Source of the DNA: Diacronema lutheri
Lineage: Eukaryota; Haptophyta; Pavlovophyceae; Pavlovales; Pavlovaceae
DNA: 64,000 nt
Assembly (NCBI GenBank): GCA_019448385.1
Contig: JAGTXO010000018.1
Coordinates: 248,001-312,000 of the forward strand
Direction: 5' to 3'
In this document: one piece after another, positions 42,987 to 51,842 of the stretch
How positions within the stretch are numbered: the first letter of the stretch is position 1
Layout: the number at the start of each line of letters is the position of its first letter
Notes under the pieces: generated by a model
Databases searched by the model: none
What the model was told of the DNA's origin: nothing
What the model saw: the letters and a program-made list of their open reading frames with translations, nothing else
Made by a program: the position numbers and the translations under genes

Positions 42987-43253
42987 GCGGCGGCACTCGG
43001 TGGCGTGCGTCCGGCTTTGGCGGCTCATCGGGGCGATGAGCACGTCGAGCTGGTGCGGACAAAGCGCACCAGCTTTGCGCGCTCGTCAGCTCGGTGCGCC
43101 GGGCCACGGGCGCAGGCTGATCTGCTCCGCTTCGCCGACAAGTGACGACCGGAAAAGTACTCTCCGAGCTGTGCAATCAGTTCCCGCCGAAATTTCGATG
43201 ATTGGATTGATCCCACCTTTTGCTTGGAAGATCGCGACGGCCAACTCCAGCCC

Positions 43254-45049
43254 ATGCGCGTCGTCACCAAGCTGCTGCCGCTGCTCGCGTGCGCGCTCTC
43301 GCCGCCGGCCACGGCGTACGACATTGGCTGCATCTACCCCGCGCAGATGCCGACGCCACTCCAGGCGTACTACAACATCTCGGCACTCTTGAGCGCGAAC
43401 GCCATCGTGCTCGGCATCGAGACGCCAATCGTGGTGCGTCGCACGGATGCTTGGTGACAGCGCGCCGTGGGCGGCGTCTCCGTGCGTGCGTGCACCGCTT
43501 TGTCCGCCATCAGGGAGTCCACCTCCCGCGCGCGCCCATCGCCGCGGGCTCTGCGCCGCAGGTGCACGGCGCGACGGCGGTGTCGCTGTGCGGTACCCTC
43601 TGCCAGTCGTACCACGATGCCGCGGCGCTCGATCCGCTCACCGAGAGCGCGCCGTCCTTCCGCGTGCCGCCGTTTGGCCACAACGCGTTCAGCCGCGTCA
43701 TGTGCACCGCGCAGTGCGTCGCGGCGCGCTCCGTGCAGACGCTGGGAATCCTCTTTGATGTGTGGAGCCTGGCTGTGACGGGCATCGAGCCCGACGTCGC
43801 ACGTGCCTTCTCGCTTGCGACTGAAGACGGCGGCGCGGCGCTCAATGCGCTGCTCGAGGAGCGCGACTTCAACCCGCTCGTCGTTGGCCAAGTTGCCGCG
43901 CTGCGCGTCGCCGTCGAGTTTGGCGGCGATGGCTGGAACGGCGACGGTGCGCTTGTCTACAGCGAGGAGCAGGATGAGGCGGTGCCGTGCACGGCCAACT
44001 GCCGACCGTACGCCGATACCATTGGTTACAAGCCGGCGCCGCAACCACAGGTGGAGTACGGCAACGCGAGCTCGTCCGTGGCCGAGAGCTGTGCGAGCCA
44101 GTGCAGCGAGTGCCCCGGGCTGTGCCGCCGCTGGCAGCCGCTCGTCGAGAGCGATCAGCGCGGCAACGCAGTCCGCCAAGTCCAAGTCACGCCGCACATT
44201 GGCATCAAGGCCAAGCTGTACGGCCAGAAGGAGCCTCCGCCGCCGTTGGCCGATCCTGGTTACGACTACCTGGAGGAGGCGCGGCTCGTGCTCGAGCGCA
44301 TGTCCGCGTCGGCGAGCAACGTGACGCGCCTCACGGCAATCCGCTTCTTCGACCAGAAGCTCTATATCCGCGGGCTCGTTGAGCTCGCTGCGCTCGAGCA
44401 GTTCCCAGACCAATCGTACGAGGAGCAGGTGATGTTCATCTTCGGCATCGGTGTCGCAGAGCAGGATGCGACCATCCTCGCGTGGCGCGAGAAGCTCGCC
44501 GCGGACCGCATCCGGCCGACGACGTACATCAAGCGCTGGGGCGAGACGATAGTGCGCACGGCGCAGCCGGGCAGCGCCGACGTTGTCGAGATCCGCGCCG
44601 CGGACTTTGAGGCGCTTGCGCGCGTCATGCCACACAGCGAGTTCCCAAGCGGCTCGGCGTGCATCTGCACGGCCTACGCCGACTTCACCGACCTCTTCAC
44701 GCTCGACCGCTTCGGCAGCAGGCTGCGCGACCTCACCCTCGGCCCCGACGAGGGCGCGGGCGGCGTCGGCCTCTTCTGCAACTCCACCTTCGTCCCGCCC
44801 GAGCAGCAGATCGGCTGCATTCCAGAGGAGCGGCTGCGGTTCGCCACCATGTCCGATTTGGCGCGCGAGTGCGGCCAGAGCCGGCTGTGGGCCGGCCTCC
44901 ACTTCACCGCGTCGGTCAGCGCAGCCGAGACGCAGTGCTCCGGGCTCGGCCGCCTCGCGAGCGACCTCACCAAGAAGGTGCGAAACGGGACGACGTGGGG
45001 CGCGACGTGGGCCGAGGGGCAGCCGCGCCCCATTTGCGGCGCGCTCTGA
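43254..45049 (+). CDS. Vanadium-haloperoxidase/PAP2-like secreted protein lacking the PSGH histidine
   Basis: Two exons, 43254-43433 and 43562-45049 (555 residues). The leader MRVVTKLLPLLACALSPPATA is a signal peptide. Three active-site motifs of the vanadate/acid-phosphatase fold appear in order and at family spacing. KLAADRIRP (~371-379) fits KxxxxxxRP; PSGSA (~422) stands in place of PSGHA; SRLWAGLHF (~500-508) fits SRxxxGxH. The missing histidine is the acid-base residue of haloperoxidases, so halide oxidation is doubtful while vanadate or phosphate binding may persist. A Cys-rich segment (CASQCSECPGLC, ~240) and many Cys pairs suggest disulfides in the secretory pathway. Confidence 0.75.
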
Positions 45050-45212: not shown

Positions 45213-45241
45213 CCCCGCCCTCACCCCGTGGGTGAGGCGGG
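45213..45241 (+). promoter_or_regulatory. Hairpin in the presumed leader of the KNL2-like gene
   Basis: CCCGCCCTCACCC and GGGTGAGGCGGG pair with one bulge around a 3-4 base loop, ending ten bases before the start codon at 45251. A stem this GC-rich could restrict scanning if it is in the mRNA. The transcript start is unknown. Confidence 0.4.
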
Positions 45242-45250
45242 CGTGCAGCA

Positions 45251-48200
45251 ATGTCGCGGCACATTGGCGCCGCGCCCGACGTGATCAAGGCGGGCGCGCT
45301 ATTTGGGGTGAGCGACCTGAGGTCGATCAAGTCGCCCATGCCCCGACCGATGCTCTCGCGGCCCGCGCCGCACGTCGCATCGGCAAGCGCGTTTGCGATC
45401 GAGGCGCCGCGGCCGATCGCGTGCACGCCGCCGTCTGCGGCTGCGCTCGCGGTGCGCAGCGAGTTTGAGATGCACGCGCTGCGGAGTCCGATGCCCAGGG
45501 CTATGATCGACCGCCACCGCACGCCGCCTATGCCCTCGTCTGCCGCGGGCGCGGGCGCGGGCGCGAGCATGATGCCGCCACGCGCGCCCGCGACGCAGGC
45601 GCGCGTCGGCGCCGAGCCGCCGGCCGCAGGCGAGCGCGAGCCGCTGCCGAGCAGCGCCCCAAAGCGTGGCGCGGATATGGCCGCGCCGCTTGCGGACGCG
45701 CAGCTCACCGGCCTCGCCGACGGCGCCGACGCTCGTGCCGCACCGCCGCCCTCGACCGCCGCATCAGCCGGCACCCGCGCGGGCGCGACGCCGGCCTCTT
45801 CGCAGGTGACGCTCGTGCGTTGGTACCCGAAGCTGGTCGCGCCGACACAGCGCCTCCCGTCCGGCGCGTTGCCCGTCGCCGTCGAGGGCATCCGGCTCGA
45901 CCCGGCGTCGGGGCGCGCGCTCGAGCGCTGGCATTCGTCAGCCATAGCGACGCGCCGATCGGCGCTCGAAATTTTGACGTCGAGTGGCTCGGTCTACAGG
46001 CTGAAGGGCCGCCTCGACGCGGCGCTATGCAAGCAGTACGCGGGCGCGGACGCGCCCGACGCCGCGATGCTCGCCGCCTTTGCCGCGGGCTTCCCCGAGG
46101 ACTGGGCGGCGCAGGTGCAGCGCGCCGCCGAGCGCGCCGCCGAGCGCGCGGCGGCGCGCGCCGCCGGCGGCGCGCGCGGCGGCGCGGCGGCCGAAGCCAC
46201 CGGCGTGACGGCGGCAGGCGCGACCAAGCCGACCAGGCCGACGCCCTCGAGCAAGGCAGCCGACGCCGCGGGCGAGCGCTCGCCTCGCGACGCCAGGCCG
46301 GACGCACACAGCGGTACGGCAGCACGAGCTTTGAAAGCAATGGCCGCCGTGCCGGCCGCCGGCCGTGCCGGCCTCGGCGCCTCGGCCGAAGTGGCCGACG
46401 CACGCGCAGCGCGCGCTGTGGGCGGCGCGCGCGACGCGCCCCGGCCGCGCAAAGGGGCGGGCGCGCGCGACGCGGCCGGCGCGGACGCTTTGGCCAATGA
46501 GGGCGCGCGCGACGCGGCCGGCGCGGACGCTTTGGCCAATGAGGGCGCGCGCGACGCGGCCGGCGCGACAGACAACACAGGCCGCGCGGCCAAGCGGCGC
46601 GCGCCGAGCGTCGTGGCGGGGGCGCGCGCTCCACCCGCGGACGGGGCGGAGCGCAGCGGCAAGCGAGCACGCGCCGCGCCGGCGGGTGTCGCGTCCGGCG
46701 CGGCGAGCGCAAAAGGCCGCGCGCAGGACGACGATGGCGACGACGGCGACGAGGAGGAGGTGGTGGAGGAGGAGGCGATGGAGGAGGAAGAGGAGGAGAT
46801 GCGCGACGAGCGCGCCGCGACGGCCGCCGCGAACGGCCGTGGCCGCGGCCGCGGCCGTGGCCGTGGTCGCGGCAGCAGCCGGGGCCGTGGCTCCGGCCGC
46901 GGGAGCGCCGGAAACCGAGGCGCGCGGGCGGCCAGCGCGCGCGACATGGCTGGGTCCGTCTCCGCCTCAGAGGCGGAGGTGGAGGCTGGGCGGGAGGCGG
47001 CGGGCGGCGAGCGCGCGGCGGTGGTGGCAGCTGCGGCTGGGGTCGCGCAGGCTGCGGTGGCCGGCCGCGGCGGCGCGCGCGGCCGCGGACGCGGACGCGG
47101 ACGCGGGCGCGGGCGCGGGCGCGGGCGCGGAGCGGCGGGCGGAGGCGCGCGTGGGCGAGGCGCGTCGCCCGTCAACGGGAGCCGCGCGGTCGCGCCGCGC
47201 GACGACGCAGATGTCGGCAGCCCGGAGCGCAGCCCGGGCCTTCAGCCAAGCGGCATGCGACTGCCCGCCTCGTCGCCTGCGGACGGCGGCACCGCGGGCA
47301 GGAAAGGCGCGGCGGCGTGGGGAGATGTGCGCCGCGCCGCGCGCCTCGCGCCGCTGCCGCGCGCCGCGCGGCTGCGCGACGTGCGCCTCGCCGCGCGCTC
47401 GCGCCGCGCGCCGCGCAATGCCCCCTCCCCTTCATGTGCGCGCGCGCGCGCCGTGCGCCGGTCCGCGCGCGCCCCACGCGCAGGTGATGCGCGTCGACGA
47501 GGCGGCCGCCCTGTCAGACGCGGCCGATCGCTCGGCGCATGCAGGGGGCGGCGGCGGCGGCGCGCCCGCGGTGACGCGCAGTGGTCGGCTGTGCGTGCGG
47601 CCGCTTGCATTCTGGAGCGGGCAGGTGCGCCCCTCGCGCGCAGCGCGCCTGCCCGCTCGCTCGTTGGCCTGCCCGTGATGTCCGGTCCTGCTTTTTGTGC
47701 TACGCGGCCGCACAGCGCGCACGCGCGCGGCTGTTGCGCGCGCGGGGAACGCGCCGAGCGGCGCGCGCTGTCCTTGGCCGGTGCCCGGCGCGCACACTCA
47801 CCCAGCCTGCGCACACTCACCCAGCCTGTGCACACTCACCCAGCCTGCGCACACTCACCCAGCCTGCGCACACTCACCCAGCCTGCGCACACTCACCCAG
47901 CCTACGCACACTCACCCAGCCTGCGCACACTCACCCAGCCTGCGCACACTCACCTGCGCACACTCACCTGCGCACACTCACCCATCCTGCGCACACTCAC
48001 CCAGCCTGCGCACACTCACCCAGCCTGTGCACACTCACCCAGCCTGCGCACACTCACCCAGCCTGCGCACACTCACCTGCGCACACTCACCCAGCCTGCG
48101 CACACTCACCCAGCCTGCGCACACTCACCCAGCCTGCGCACACTCACCCAGCCTGCGCACACTCACCCAGCCTGCGCACACTCACCCAGCCTGCGCACAC

Positions 48201-50415
48201 TCACCCAGCCTACGCACACTCACCCAGCCTGCGCACACTCACCCAGCCTGCGCACACTCACCTGCGCACACTCACCTGCGCACACTCACCCATCCTGCGC
48301 ACACTCACCCAGCCTGCGCACACTCACCCAGCCTGTGCACACTCACCCAGCCTGCGCACACTCACCCAGCCTGCGCACACTCACCTGCGCACACTCACCC
48401 AGCCTGCGCACACTCACCCAGCCTGCGCACACTCACCCAGCCTGCGCACACTCACCCAGCCTGCGCACACTCACCCAGCCTGCGCACACTCACCCAGCCT
48501 GTGCACACTCACCCAGCCTGCGCACACTCACCCAGCCTGCGCACACTCACCTGCGCACACTCACCCAGCCTGCGCACACTCACCCAGCCTGCGACACTCA
48601 CCCAGCCTGCGCACACTCACCCAGCCTGCGCACACTCACCCAGCCTGCGCACACTCACCCAGCCTGTGCACACTCACCCAGCCTGCGCACACTCACCCAG
48701 CCTGCGCACACTCACCCAGCCTGCGCACACTCACCCAGCCTGCGCACACTCACCCAGCCTGCGCACACTCACCCAGCCTGCGCACACTCACCCAGCCTGC
48801 GCACACTCACCCAGCCTGCGCACACTCACCCAGCCTGCGCCTGCGCGCGCGCGCGCGCGCGCGCGCGCGCGCGCGCGCGCGCGTCGCGTCTGGGCGTGCA
48901 GATGCGTATGATCGGCGTTGGCGCAGACGCGCAGGCCATGATTACGATGGGCGGGCCCGACTTCACCGGCCGGAGGGTGCCCGAGCCGCCGCCCCTCCTC
49001 CTCATGCGCCCGTCGCCCGCGCCGCCACGCACGGCGCCGCGCGCTCCCGCCGCGCCCGCCGACGCGGCCGCCGAGGCGAGCGGCCGAGGTCGCGGCCGCG
49101 GCGGCGCGGCGCATGGCGCGCGCGGCCGCGGCCGCGGCCGCGGCGACGCCTCGGCGCGCGGCGCGACGCGCGACTCGGGCGCGGCGGACGGGGGCGACGA
49201 GGCCACGGCCGGCATAGATTCGGAGGGTGCCGACACGGCGGCGTATGAGGCCGGCGCGAACGGCCGGGCGCCACGCGCGCGCTCGGACGATGACGGCGGC
49301 GGCCGCGCGCGCATTGGCCCTCCGCCCAAGAAACGGAAAGCCGACGCGAGCGCGAGCGGCGCGCGCGCGGCCTTCGACGAGGGCGCGGCCGCAAGTTCGG
49401 CTGCAGCCGCGGGCAATGGCGCCGACGCCGCCGACGCGAATGGCAATGGAGGCGACGACGACGGCTCGCGCGCGTGGAGCGGCGCTGAGCTGCAGGCGCT
49501 GCGCCAGGCGCACGACCTGACAGGGCCGTCGGAGCCGGACTTTTGGGAGCAGGTGGCGCGCCGGCTGAGCGGCCGCTCGTCGCAGGCGTGCGCCGCGCGC
49601 TACTACGTCGAGTGGCCCACGCCCGCGCGCAACGCGGGCGCCGCCGGCAAGGGCGCACGCAGGATCGGCGGCGGGGGCGTGGGCTCTGCGCGCGCGCGCC
49701 TCGGCGACGGCACGCGCGCTGCCGAGGCGCAGCAGCCGCCAAGGGAGGACGGCGAGGGTGACGAGGCGGGAGAGGCGGAGGCGGTGGATGCGCTCGGCAA
49801 GGATCTTTCGCACTCGCGATCTGAAGCGTCCGGCGACGAGGCTGAGAGCCTCCTCAGGTACGCTCAGTGCCGTGCTGTGCGTAGCTGACCTCCCCCTGCG
49901 CCCCCCTGCGCTCCCCTGCGCGCTGCGTCCGGCGCCACCGGATCCCCCCCCCCCCCCCCCTCCCCCTGCGCGCTGCGCGTGGGGCGTGCGCCGCCTCCGA
50001 GCGTCGCACGCGGCTCACCGAGCGCATCGTCATTTGCCTCGTCCGACCCTAACCCTAACCCTAACCCTAACCCTAACCCGAGCGCATCGTCATTGCCTCG
50101 TCCGACCTCACACCCACGCAGGCCGCTCACCGCGCGCGACCGCAAGGCAGCGGCGGCCAAGGCGCGGAGCGCGCAGCAGCTGCAGCGCGCGCACGGCAAG
50201 CAGGCGCGTACGCAGGTGCGTGCGCGCACGCTCGGGCCGCGCGCGCGTGCGGCGCGCTGCGCTCGGTGGCGCGGCTTTGGCCGGTCGCGTCTGCGCGGCT
50301 GGCCGTCGGGCGGCGCAGCGCGGACTCGGGCGCACGCCGTCGCGCCAGCGCCTCACCTTCCGCTGCGCCACCGGCTGCTGCGCCCAGCGCCGGGCGCAAC
50401 TCACCCGCGCGCGCG

Positions 50416-50450
<35 letters not shown>

Positions 50451-50664
50451 TTCCCTTCCCCCCGCTGCCCTACCTCTCACCCGTCGGCAGCCCGCCCCGA
50501 GCCGACGGCAGCCGATCGGCGGCGAGGGCGGTGCCTCGAGCCGCAGCGGCAAGGGGCGCAAGCGGATCGTTGCGAGCAGCAGCAGCAGCGACGGCGATAG
50601 CGATGGCGGCGGCGGCGGCGGCAGCGGCGGCAGCGGAGAGGACGACGATGAGACCGACGAGTAG
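45251..50664 (+). CDS. KNL2/M18BP1-like CENP-A loading factor (SANTA + CENP-C-like + SANT)
   Basis: Five exons: 45251-47326, 47484-47624, 48902-49857, 50122-50215, 50491-50664, all in phase (1146 residues). Residues ~185-290 form a SANTA domain: VTLVRWYPKLV, GIRLDPASGRALERWHSSAI, SSGSVYRLKGRLD and the hallmark GFPEDW. Exon 2 (693-739) ends TRSGRLCVRPLAFWSGQ, which resembles the CENPC-k/CENP-C motif (RxSxR..PPLxFWxxQ). Residues ~932-980 are a SANT/Myb domain (WSGAELQALRQAH...FWEQVARRLSGRSSQACAARY). The remainder is disordered, with GRGRGR tracts and acidic tails, and ends in a basic/serine/acidic nuclear-type tail. KNL2/Mis18BP1 brings new CENP-A to centromeres. The intron after the CENP-C-like exon is a 1.3-kb minisatellite; intron 3 holds telomere repeats. 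Confidence 0.8.
47796..48838. repeat. 19-bp minisatellite with ~310-bp higher-order period, KNL2-like intron 2
   Basis: More than fifty copies of CACACTCACCCAGCCTGCG, with 14-bp variants (CACACTCACCTGCG) and point variants (TACGC, TGTGC, CCATCC). The variant string TACGC...CCTGCG x2...CCATCC...TGTGC recurs about 310 bp apart (for example 47901 and 48211), which shows higher-order duplication. Every unit contains CCCAG, an acceptor-like sequence. No spacer/repeat alternation, so not CRISPR. Confidence 0.95.
48846..48886. repeat. (GC)n tract
   Basis: About 20 GC dinucleotides between the minisatellite and the exon 3 acceptor; potential Z-DNA. Confidence 0.9.
50019..50105. repeat. Interstitial telomere-type repeat with flanking direct repeats
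   Basis: (CCCTAA)5 plus CCC at 50047-50079, the complement of TTAGGG, is flanked by a direct repeat: CGAGCGCATCGTCATTTGCC... (50019-50046) and the same sequence minus one T (50079-50105). The array lies in intron 3 of the KNL2-like gene. Confidence 0.9.
50416..50450. repeat. Poly-C tract in KNL2-like intron 4
   Basis: A C35 run shortly before the exon 5 acceptor, followed by TTCCCTTCCCCCCGC. Confidence 0.9.
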
Positions 50665-50740: not shown

Positions 50741-51842
50741 TCATTGGGGGGACGCATCACATCGCCTACCGAACGCCGCGTGGAACAGGCGGCGATTGCT
50801 CGCGGCGATCTTCTCCTTCGCCATGAGCAGCACGGCTGCGGAGAGCACGCCCTTCACGAGCTCGGGCCGGATGCCCTGGTAAAGCGCGAGCACGCCCTCC
50901 TCGCGCACCACCTGCCGCAGCACCTCGCGCACGCTGCCGCGCGCGTTCGCGCGCGCGCTCTCGGCCTCGCCGGCGGCGGCCGCGCCGGCGGCCGCGCTCG
51001 GGCTTGTGGTCGCGCGCGTCATGAGCAGCACCTTGGCGCGCACGCACGGGAAGACGAGCAGCGTGGCGACGGCTCGCGCGATTGCGCCGAGCGCGAACGC
51101 CTGCGCGGCCGACAGCTCGCGCGCGGCCACGCCAAGCGCGCGCGCCGAGCGCTCGAGCACGCGCTTGCGCAGGGCCTCGAAGATTGCGTTCTGAATGGCG
51201 GGCTTGAGTGCGAGGACGACGTACGCTGCAATCCCCGAATAGAACCCGCCCAGCCCGCCGCGCTCGTCGCGGATCTCGCGGAGCGCGCAGAGCGCGGCCG
51301 CGCCGGTCGTTTGCATTCGCACCGCCACCTGCTCGGCCGGCATTGTCACGAGCAGGTGGGACCAGTCGGCGAGGTAGCCGAGGAGCACGTTGGCCGGTAG
51401 GCCCACCGCACCCACCAGCCGCGTGTACGTCCGCTTGAGCGCGCTGTACGTGTCTGCGAGCGTGCACTCGCGCGGGCGAGCACGCCGGCGTGAGCGCGAC
51501 GGTGCACGCCGCAACTGCGCGCGCGCGCGAGCGCTGCGGCGCGCGGTCGAGACGCGCGGGGCATTGGCGCGCACAAAAGTAGATGAATTTTTCGAAGAAG
51601 GCCTGCACGGCGGCGACGTGGCACCCGCCGTACAGGCCGCCGATGACGCCGTCGCGCGCGACGAGATCGCGCGCGATCTCTGGCGCGGTGCGCGGCGGCC
51701 GGCCGCCGGGCGCTGTGCGCTTCTTCTGCGCCTGCAGGTTGGTCTTGATCACCTCGAGCGGGTACACTGTCGTCGTCGAGATGACGCCAGCGAGGCCGCC
51801 CGACGTCGCGTCGATGATCGCGTTGAGCATTGCCTCCCCCAT
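50741..51842 (-). CDS. Mitochondrial carrier family (SLC25) protein, possibly peroxisomal
   Basis: Two exons, 51842-51575 and 51453-50741, joined in phase 1 to give FIYFYTYSALK (326 residues). Three carrier repeats: first signature PLEVIKTNLQ, second altered as MPAEQVAVRMQTT, third PCVRAKVLLM, followed by GLYGG, GFYSG and ALYQGIRPELVKG. The KFIYFY..YSALK segment and diverged second signature resemble peroxisomal nucleotide/cofactor carriers (PMP34/PXN) more than ADP/ATP carriers; substrate is not determined. Ends 76 bp from the KNL2-like gene (convergent) and starts 63 bp from the vWA gene (divergent). Confidence 0.8.

Follow-up and report, generated by a model that had tools for sequence, protein, structure and literature searches.

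A KNL2/M18BP1-type gene in the haptophyte Diacronema lutheri with predicted SANTA, CENP-C-like and SANT modules

A stretch of 64,000 nucleotides from the genome of the haptophyte alga Diacronema lutheri (contig JAGTXO010000018.1, C33:248001-312000 in our contig numbering; hereafter the window, from whose first base positions are counted) carries a gene at 45251..50664 of the forward strand. It is very probably the single KNL2/M18BP1 orthologue of this haptophyte, and is predicted to license centromeres for new CENP-A. Three modules, in the order SANTA, CENP-C-like motif and SANT, were computed directly in the gene model, as were a Mis18-type protein and a CENP-A-like histone elsewhere in the genome.

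Results

The five-exon model and its three modules

Genome searches covered the 43,492,796-base assembly (103 contigs). The exon set adopted is the one found to reproduce the 1146 residues stated in the initial annotation, and the joined exons do so exactly, giving 3441 nucleotides (1146 codons plus a stop) with GT...AG at all four introns. The predicted exons and the modules that they encode are as follows.

45251..47326, plus strand: exon 1 (residues 1-692); N-terminus with Ser/Thr-Pro (S/T-P) sites, SANTA, acidic and Arg-Gly (RG)-rich linkers; donor GAT/GTGCGC
45872..46108, plus strand: SANTA domain (residues 208-286), ending in GFPEDW; Pfam PF09133
47484..47624, plus strand: exon 2 (residues 693-739); 47 codons, phase 0 at both ends; holds the CENP-C-like core
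47574..47624, plus strand: CENPC-k motif TRSGRLCVRPLAFWSGQ (residues 723-739); PDB sequence matches, position score, pattern scan
48902..49857, plus strand: exon 3 (residues 740-1058); RG-rich linker, PPKKRK basic stretch, SANT/Myb domain
49472..49606, plus strand: SANT/Myb domain (residues 930-974); PF00249, best PDB match 1wgx
50122..50215, plus strand: exon 4 (residues 1058-1089); basic
50491..50664, plus strand: exon 5 (residues 1090-1146 and stop); Ser/Gly/acidic C-terminus

The SANTA domain with its GFPEDW hallmark, which the initial annotation had called by eye within residues 185-290, was recovered there by PF09133 in the full-length protein (40.8 bits against a cut-off of 21, expectation value (E) 3.2e-10; domain E 4.7e-12). 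This gene was also the sole SANTA match in the 43.5 Mb genome (46.5 bits), and the domain had a sole PDB match at E up to 10, the Mis18-binding protein 1 construct 9r6h (E 1.1e-4).

The SANT/Myb call was likewise upheld, PF00249 scoring 27.8 bits against a cut-off of 24.4 when the domain was scanned in isolation. Its best PDB match, 1wgx (E 4.3e-5), is named KIAA1903 and comes from a human cDNA; 9f5w, a Mis18-binding protein 1 chain, matched as well and has the same sequence as 1wgx in the alignment. In the reverse direction, the human M18BP1 SANT domain of 1wgx found exon 3 first of three places in the genome (24.6 bits versus 18.3 and 17.6). On this search, together with a rank of only 83rd among the 86 genome matches to the generic Myb model, we reject a generic Myb protein. 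An AlphaFold model of the domain was fair, with three helices and a mean predicted local distance difference test score (pLDDT) of 63.5. Foldseek with this model gave no match at E up to 0.001; rows 1-9 of its output were all of SANT/Myb type, 1wgx standing second (E 0.065).

The exon-2 block TRSGRLCVRPLAFWSGQ had three PDB matches at E up to 10: 7y7i_K (0.021), 4x23_V (0.28) and 7bxt_K (0.95). The latter two are CENP-C chains. The first is labelled a Myb-like domain-containing protein in PDB, and we take it to be chicken KNL2. Aligned with these three chains, the haptophyte motif shows invariant R, R, P, L, W and G, and the core that it has in common with CENP-C is RxxRxxxxPLx[FY]WxG. The haptophyte motif reads T-R-S-G-R-L, with Ser at 725 (S725) and the anchor Arg (R727) as the last Arg of RSGR, followed by F735-W736. 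This RSGR...FW form is common to the haptophyte motif, the PDB KNL2 chain and plant CENPC-k, whereas the CENP-C chains have RSNR and RTKR...YW.

With one row for each of the three PDB chains, a position score came to 49.0 at this site and to 34.7 at the next independent one in 227,205 scanned bases, a total that includes overlapping loci (L001 and L038 were excluded, and four of the five highest rows are this one site recurring in L055-L058). Simulating the locus 300 times with a first-order Markov model gave a maximum of 33.3. There is some circularity here, since the chains behind the score are those that this very query matched in PDB; with that reservation, we judge a chance motif unlikely. 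Thus the CENP-C-like block of the initial annotation is backed by PDB matches and the score test, but not by any Pfam family.

Centromere partners encoded in the genome

One Yippee-Mis18 (PF03226) protein was found, at C6:219102-219377 (L002), as a 191-residue single open frame above the family cut-off (E 1.5e-10). Its best PDB match is Mis18-alpha (E 0.0032), followed by two kinetochore protein mis18 chains (E 0.21 and 0.37), and its C-terminal tail looks helical by eye.

Reading of the 18 histone-family matches in the genome brought out one divergent histone H3, whose gene is split into two pieces (L006 and L016) at C29:505710-506203 and has at least one intron, probably two. It carries a 5-residue insertion in loop 1, a Phe-to-Trp change in the loop, a replaced N-terminal tail and a 7-residue C-terminal extension. 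A loop-1 insertion, the Trp, an altered N-tail and a C-terminal extension are hallmarks of CENP-A, and from its sequence this gene is probably the CENP-A/CenH3 of D. lutheri. In PDB it matches centromeric Cnp1 best, but ordinary H3 nearly ties (140.1 versus 140.0 bits), so PDB scores by themselves do not tell it from H3. Two near-identical H3 genes, L004 and L005 (C30:289459-292782 and 307037-310360), lie 17.6 kb apart; each has an intron after APRKQ and is accompanied by an adjacent H2B-like match on the other strand.

Other matches to the CENP-C core

A degenerate pattern of the core had 11 matches in the genome, three of them (L032, L034 and L041) on the minus strand. When all 11 were read in frame, an Arg three residues before the anchor Arg occurred only at the KNL2 site and in L040, which was rejected as CENP-C for its 30-codon frame. 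L033 was set aside because it lacks the upstream Arg, and L042 because Ser replaces Arg. L034-L036 (C29:544251, 733891 and 737100) closely resemble one another as copies of a single repeat, read in frame as R[SAV]ARRPFPFWQG; they lack the upstream Arg, stand seven codons downstream of a stop and are partial look-alikes of the core. None of the 10 other matches, as read in frame, revealed a CENP-C, and these searches are too insensitive to show that CENP-C is absent.

Evidence for and against the assignment

Several results weigh against a three-module KNL2. Scanning the 1146-residue product with Pfam returned no family on the exon-2 stretch, and the PDB E-values of that block are modest, because the query is short. 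The degenerate core pattern found as many matches in the reversed control (11) as in the genome, and the 22-residue KNL2 motif from PDB, used as a genome query, found nothing, not even the exon-2 site. PF00249 scored 21.9 bits in the full-length scan, below its cut-off, and an AlphaFold model of SANTA made without relatives was poor (mean pLDDT 47.4). Genome searches for the CENP-C cupin (PF11699) and for the Scm3 family gave no candidates, both being weak tests for spliced, divergent genes. PF11699 gave a below-cut-off signal in 8 of 14 prokaryote controls, and the Scm3 null is uninformative because the control genomes gave no match either. Among the families listed for the 1146-residue product at E up to 10, the cupin was absent as well. 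The identification as KNL2/M18BP1 with three modules, proposed in the initial annotation, is nevertheless sustained by profile, PDB and reciprocal searches, and the wider interpretation offered there stands in part.

Splicing of exon 2

Whether all three modules enter one product depends on how the gene is spliced. The donors of introns 1-4 read GTGCGC, GTGCGC, GTACGC and GTGCGT. They match those of the histone genes, in which the protein itself fixes the splice site: L004 and L005 splice as CAG/GTGCGC...CAG and the CENP-A-like gene as TTG/GTACGC...GCAG (the pattern at a third H3 locus, L003, is less clear than in L004/L005). The exon 1 donor is the least certain junction. In-frame donors at 47380 and 47452 also yield a product with one terminal stop and leave all domains untouched, and further candidates exist beyond these two.

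One alternative is that the main mRNA lacks exon 2, through skipping or through retention of introns 1 and 2, and encodes a SANTA and SANT product like mammalian M18BP1, the CENP-C-like block being a relic or a rare isoform. SANTA and SANT share one frame that is free of stops from 45236 to 49888 without any splicing, and exon 2 is in another, so the motif reaches the product only when introns 1 and 2 are both removed at the modelled sites. The frame runs on to the normal stop both with exon 2 skipped (1099 residues) and with introns 1 and 2 jointly retained (1624 residues), and intron 2 holds a 1-kb minisatellite. We nonetheless consider this alternative very unlikely: the motif keeps the R, R, P, L, W and G that are invariant with KNL2 and two CENP-C chains, which argues against a relic, the donor and acceptor of exon 2 resemble those of the histone genes, and retention of intron 2 alone breaks the frame. 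Base composition counts for little here. The proportions of guanine plus cytosine (GC) at the three codon positions are 0.809/0.681/0.830 in exon 2, 0.795/0.711/0.855 in exon 1 and similar in exon 3, the dip at position 2 being present in exons 1-4 and absent from exon 5 (0.69/0.69/0.88); they support exon 2 weakly, because intron 3 has a similar, exon-like profile (0.68/0.66/0.82). The GC content of the window in 2-kb steps is 66-79%.

It is extremely improbable, in our view, that two adjacent genes have been joined in the model, one with SANTA and the CENP-C motif and a separate SANT gene starting in or after intron 2, even though a 1.3-kb gap with the minisatellite separates exon 2 from exon 3 and exon 3 opens with in-frame ATG codons (ATGCGTATG). 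The exon 3 SANT is the best match of the genome to human M18BP1 SANT, and reciprocally. An M18BP1-type SANT beside the sole SANTA match makes chance adjacency unlikely, given 86 Myb-type matches in 43.5 Mb. Finally, because exon 2 is in phase 0 at either end, the gene could also yield an isoform without the motif. Exon 2 might then be a cassette whose inclusion or skipping would give a KNL2 that binds CENP-A nucleosomes or a motif-less one of the beta-KNL2 or mammalian kind, an arrangement that strikes us as distinctly unlikely.

Composition, intron repeats and flanking genes

The full-length product has Ala/Gly/Arg-rich linkers (24% Ala) containing RG runs, and its N-terminal 185 residues hold two SPMPR sites and three other S/T-P sites. 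Two introns contain repeats.

47790..48840, plus strand: 19-bp minisatellite of 57 copies in intron 2 (repeat scan)
50018..50107, plus strand: interstitial CCCTAA array with flanking repeats in intron 3 (sequence reading)

Blocks of the minisatellite at 47939 and 48247 repeat 308 bp apart, and all 32 exact genome matches to a 34-base probe of two units fall in intron 2. The short CCCTAA array (about 50046-50082) comprises five complete units plus a half and is flanked by two near-identical copies of a sequence of roughly 30 bp (50018-50048 and 50078-50107), as if telomere-type repeats had been added in the repair of a break. Among the matches listed, out of 203 in the genome, this repeat lies at the start of contigs C15 and C30, at the end of C29, and at sites such as C17:22634 and C17:304500.

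The upstream neighbour (43211-45046, plus strand) matches the VCPO second helical-bundle domain (PF22778, E 4.1e-11), VCPO presumably standing for vanadium-dependent chloroperoxidase. The downstream neighbour (50744-51748, minus strand) is a mitochondrial carrier protein (PF00153, E 1.7e-21).

Discussion

KNL2/M18BP1 is known in cut-down forms, mammals lacking the CENP-C motif and plants lacking SANT. SANTA is reported in all identified KNL2/M18BP1 members (PMC13294675). The same source places SANTA, a CENP-C-like motif and SANT in one protein in Xenopus M18BP1 and chicken KNL2 (PMC13294675), to which the haptophyte protein is further alike in its RSGR...FW motif, including the regulatory serine. 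It differs from the non-mammalian vertebrate proteins in its very Ala/Gly/Arg-rich linkers, and one Mis18-family place was found in the haptophyte genome where vertebrates have alpha and beta. With plant alpha- and gamma-KNL2 it shares SANTA and a CENPC-k of the RSGR...PLxFW type. According to PMC11879092 and PMC13294675, however, SANT is undetectable in plant KNL2 and no Mis18 has been identified in plants, whereas the haptophyte protein has a SANT domain and its genome encodes one Mis18. Mammalian M18BP1 resembles the haptophyte protein in having SANTA and SANT, for each of which the haptophyte domain has M18BP1 as best PDB match, and in the presence of an encoded Mis18; it lacks the CENP-C motif (PMC4830207) that the haptophyte protein has. 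CENP-C itself shares the core of the motif, but the haptophyte protein has no cupin match and carries SANTA and SANT. Among the matches listed in openly licensed PMC papers, no report of a haptophyte KNL2 was found.

By analogy with these relatives, the CENP-C-like motif would read existing CENP-A nucleosomes directly, R727 contacting the acidic patch of H2A/H2B and F735-W736 the C-terminal tail of CENP-A. Xenopus and chicken M18BP1/KNL2 use the CENP-C motif to bind CENP-A nucleosomes, through the tail of CENP-A, its loop 1 and the acidic patch (PMC13021935). The plant CENPC-k is given as KRSRSGRV/LLVSPLEFW, in which an Arg and a Trp are needed for targeting (PMC9210943). This Arg, the seventh residue (PMC9210943), aligns with R727. 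Phosphorylation of S725 might switch off nucleosome reading in mitosis: in Xenopus M18BP1-L, S760 phosphorylation in metaphase, mimicked by S760D, blocks nucleosome binding (PMC13021935). The S760A primer printed in that paper decodes to S-R-[S to A]-G-R-L; Xenopus S760 is therefore the serine of RSGR, kept in the haptophyte as S725.

The other modules may contribute in their own ways. SANTA could make a further contact, either with a partner in the inner kinetochore or with another KNL2 molecule, and SANT and the basic RG-rich linkers may add chromatin or DNA binding. The N-terminus would recruit Mis18, bringing the chaperone with new CENP-A. In human M18BP1, Mis18 binding is under cell-cycle control, and the N-terminal S/T-P sites of the haptophyte protein could carry such control. 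We infer every one of these binding and loading steps from vertebrate and plant work.

The initial annotation had suggested that finding the three modules in an alga would make the full set ancestral. The modules are indeed found together, but this is less new than was implied: CENPC-k is already in print for the KNL2 of chytrid fungi, cryptomonads, many invertebrates, non-mammalian vertebrates and plants (PMC9210943). Likewise, non-mammalian vertebrates already provide examples of the three modules in one protein, and what the haptophyte adds is its position in the tree. On grounds of parsimony, it is plausible that the full three-module set is ancestral and was later reduced by the loss of one part in mammals and of another in plants. 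That haptophytes and vertebrates instead acquired the set independently, by gaining the CENP-C motif or SANT, we consider unlikely. Short motifs can be gained, and module content does vary between KNL2 lineages and paralogues (PMC9210943, PMC13294675). The haptophyte motif is, however, of the KNL2 subtype, like the PDB KNL2 chain and plant CENPC-k and unlike the CENP-C chains, and the haptophyte SANT is specifically M18BP1-like. The order of modules is SANTA, CENPC, SANT in Xenopus and chicken, and it is the same here. A full-length form in a haptophyte whose genome also encodes Mis18 and a CENP-A-like histone is easier to reconcile with losses from a complete ancestor than with separate gains.

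Were exon 2 a cassette, one gene would achieve through alternative splicing what takes plants two paralogues, and the RSGR serine switch would be an ancient part of the full-length protein in haptophytes, plants and vertebrates. With the gene read as a three-module KNL2/M18BP1 orthologue, D. lutheri provides a small, single-celled system in which KNL2 and Mis18 each have one match. Because the RSGR...FW motif is shared, serine included, it becomes testable there whether mitotic control of nucleosome reading predates animals.

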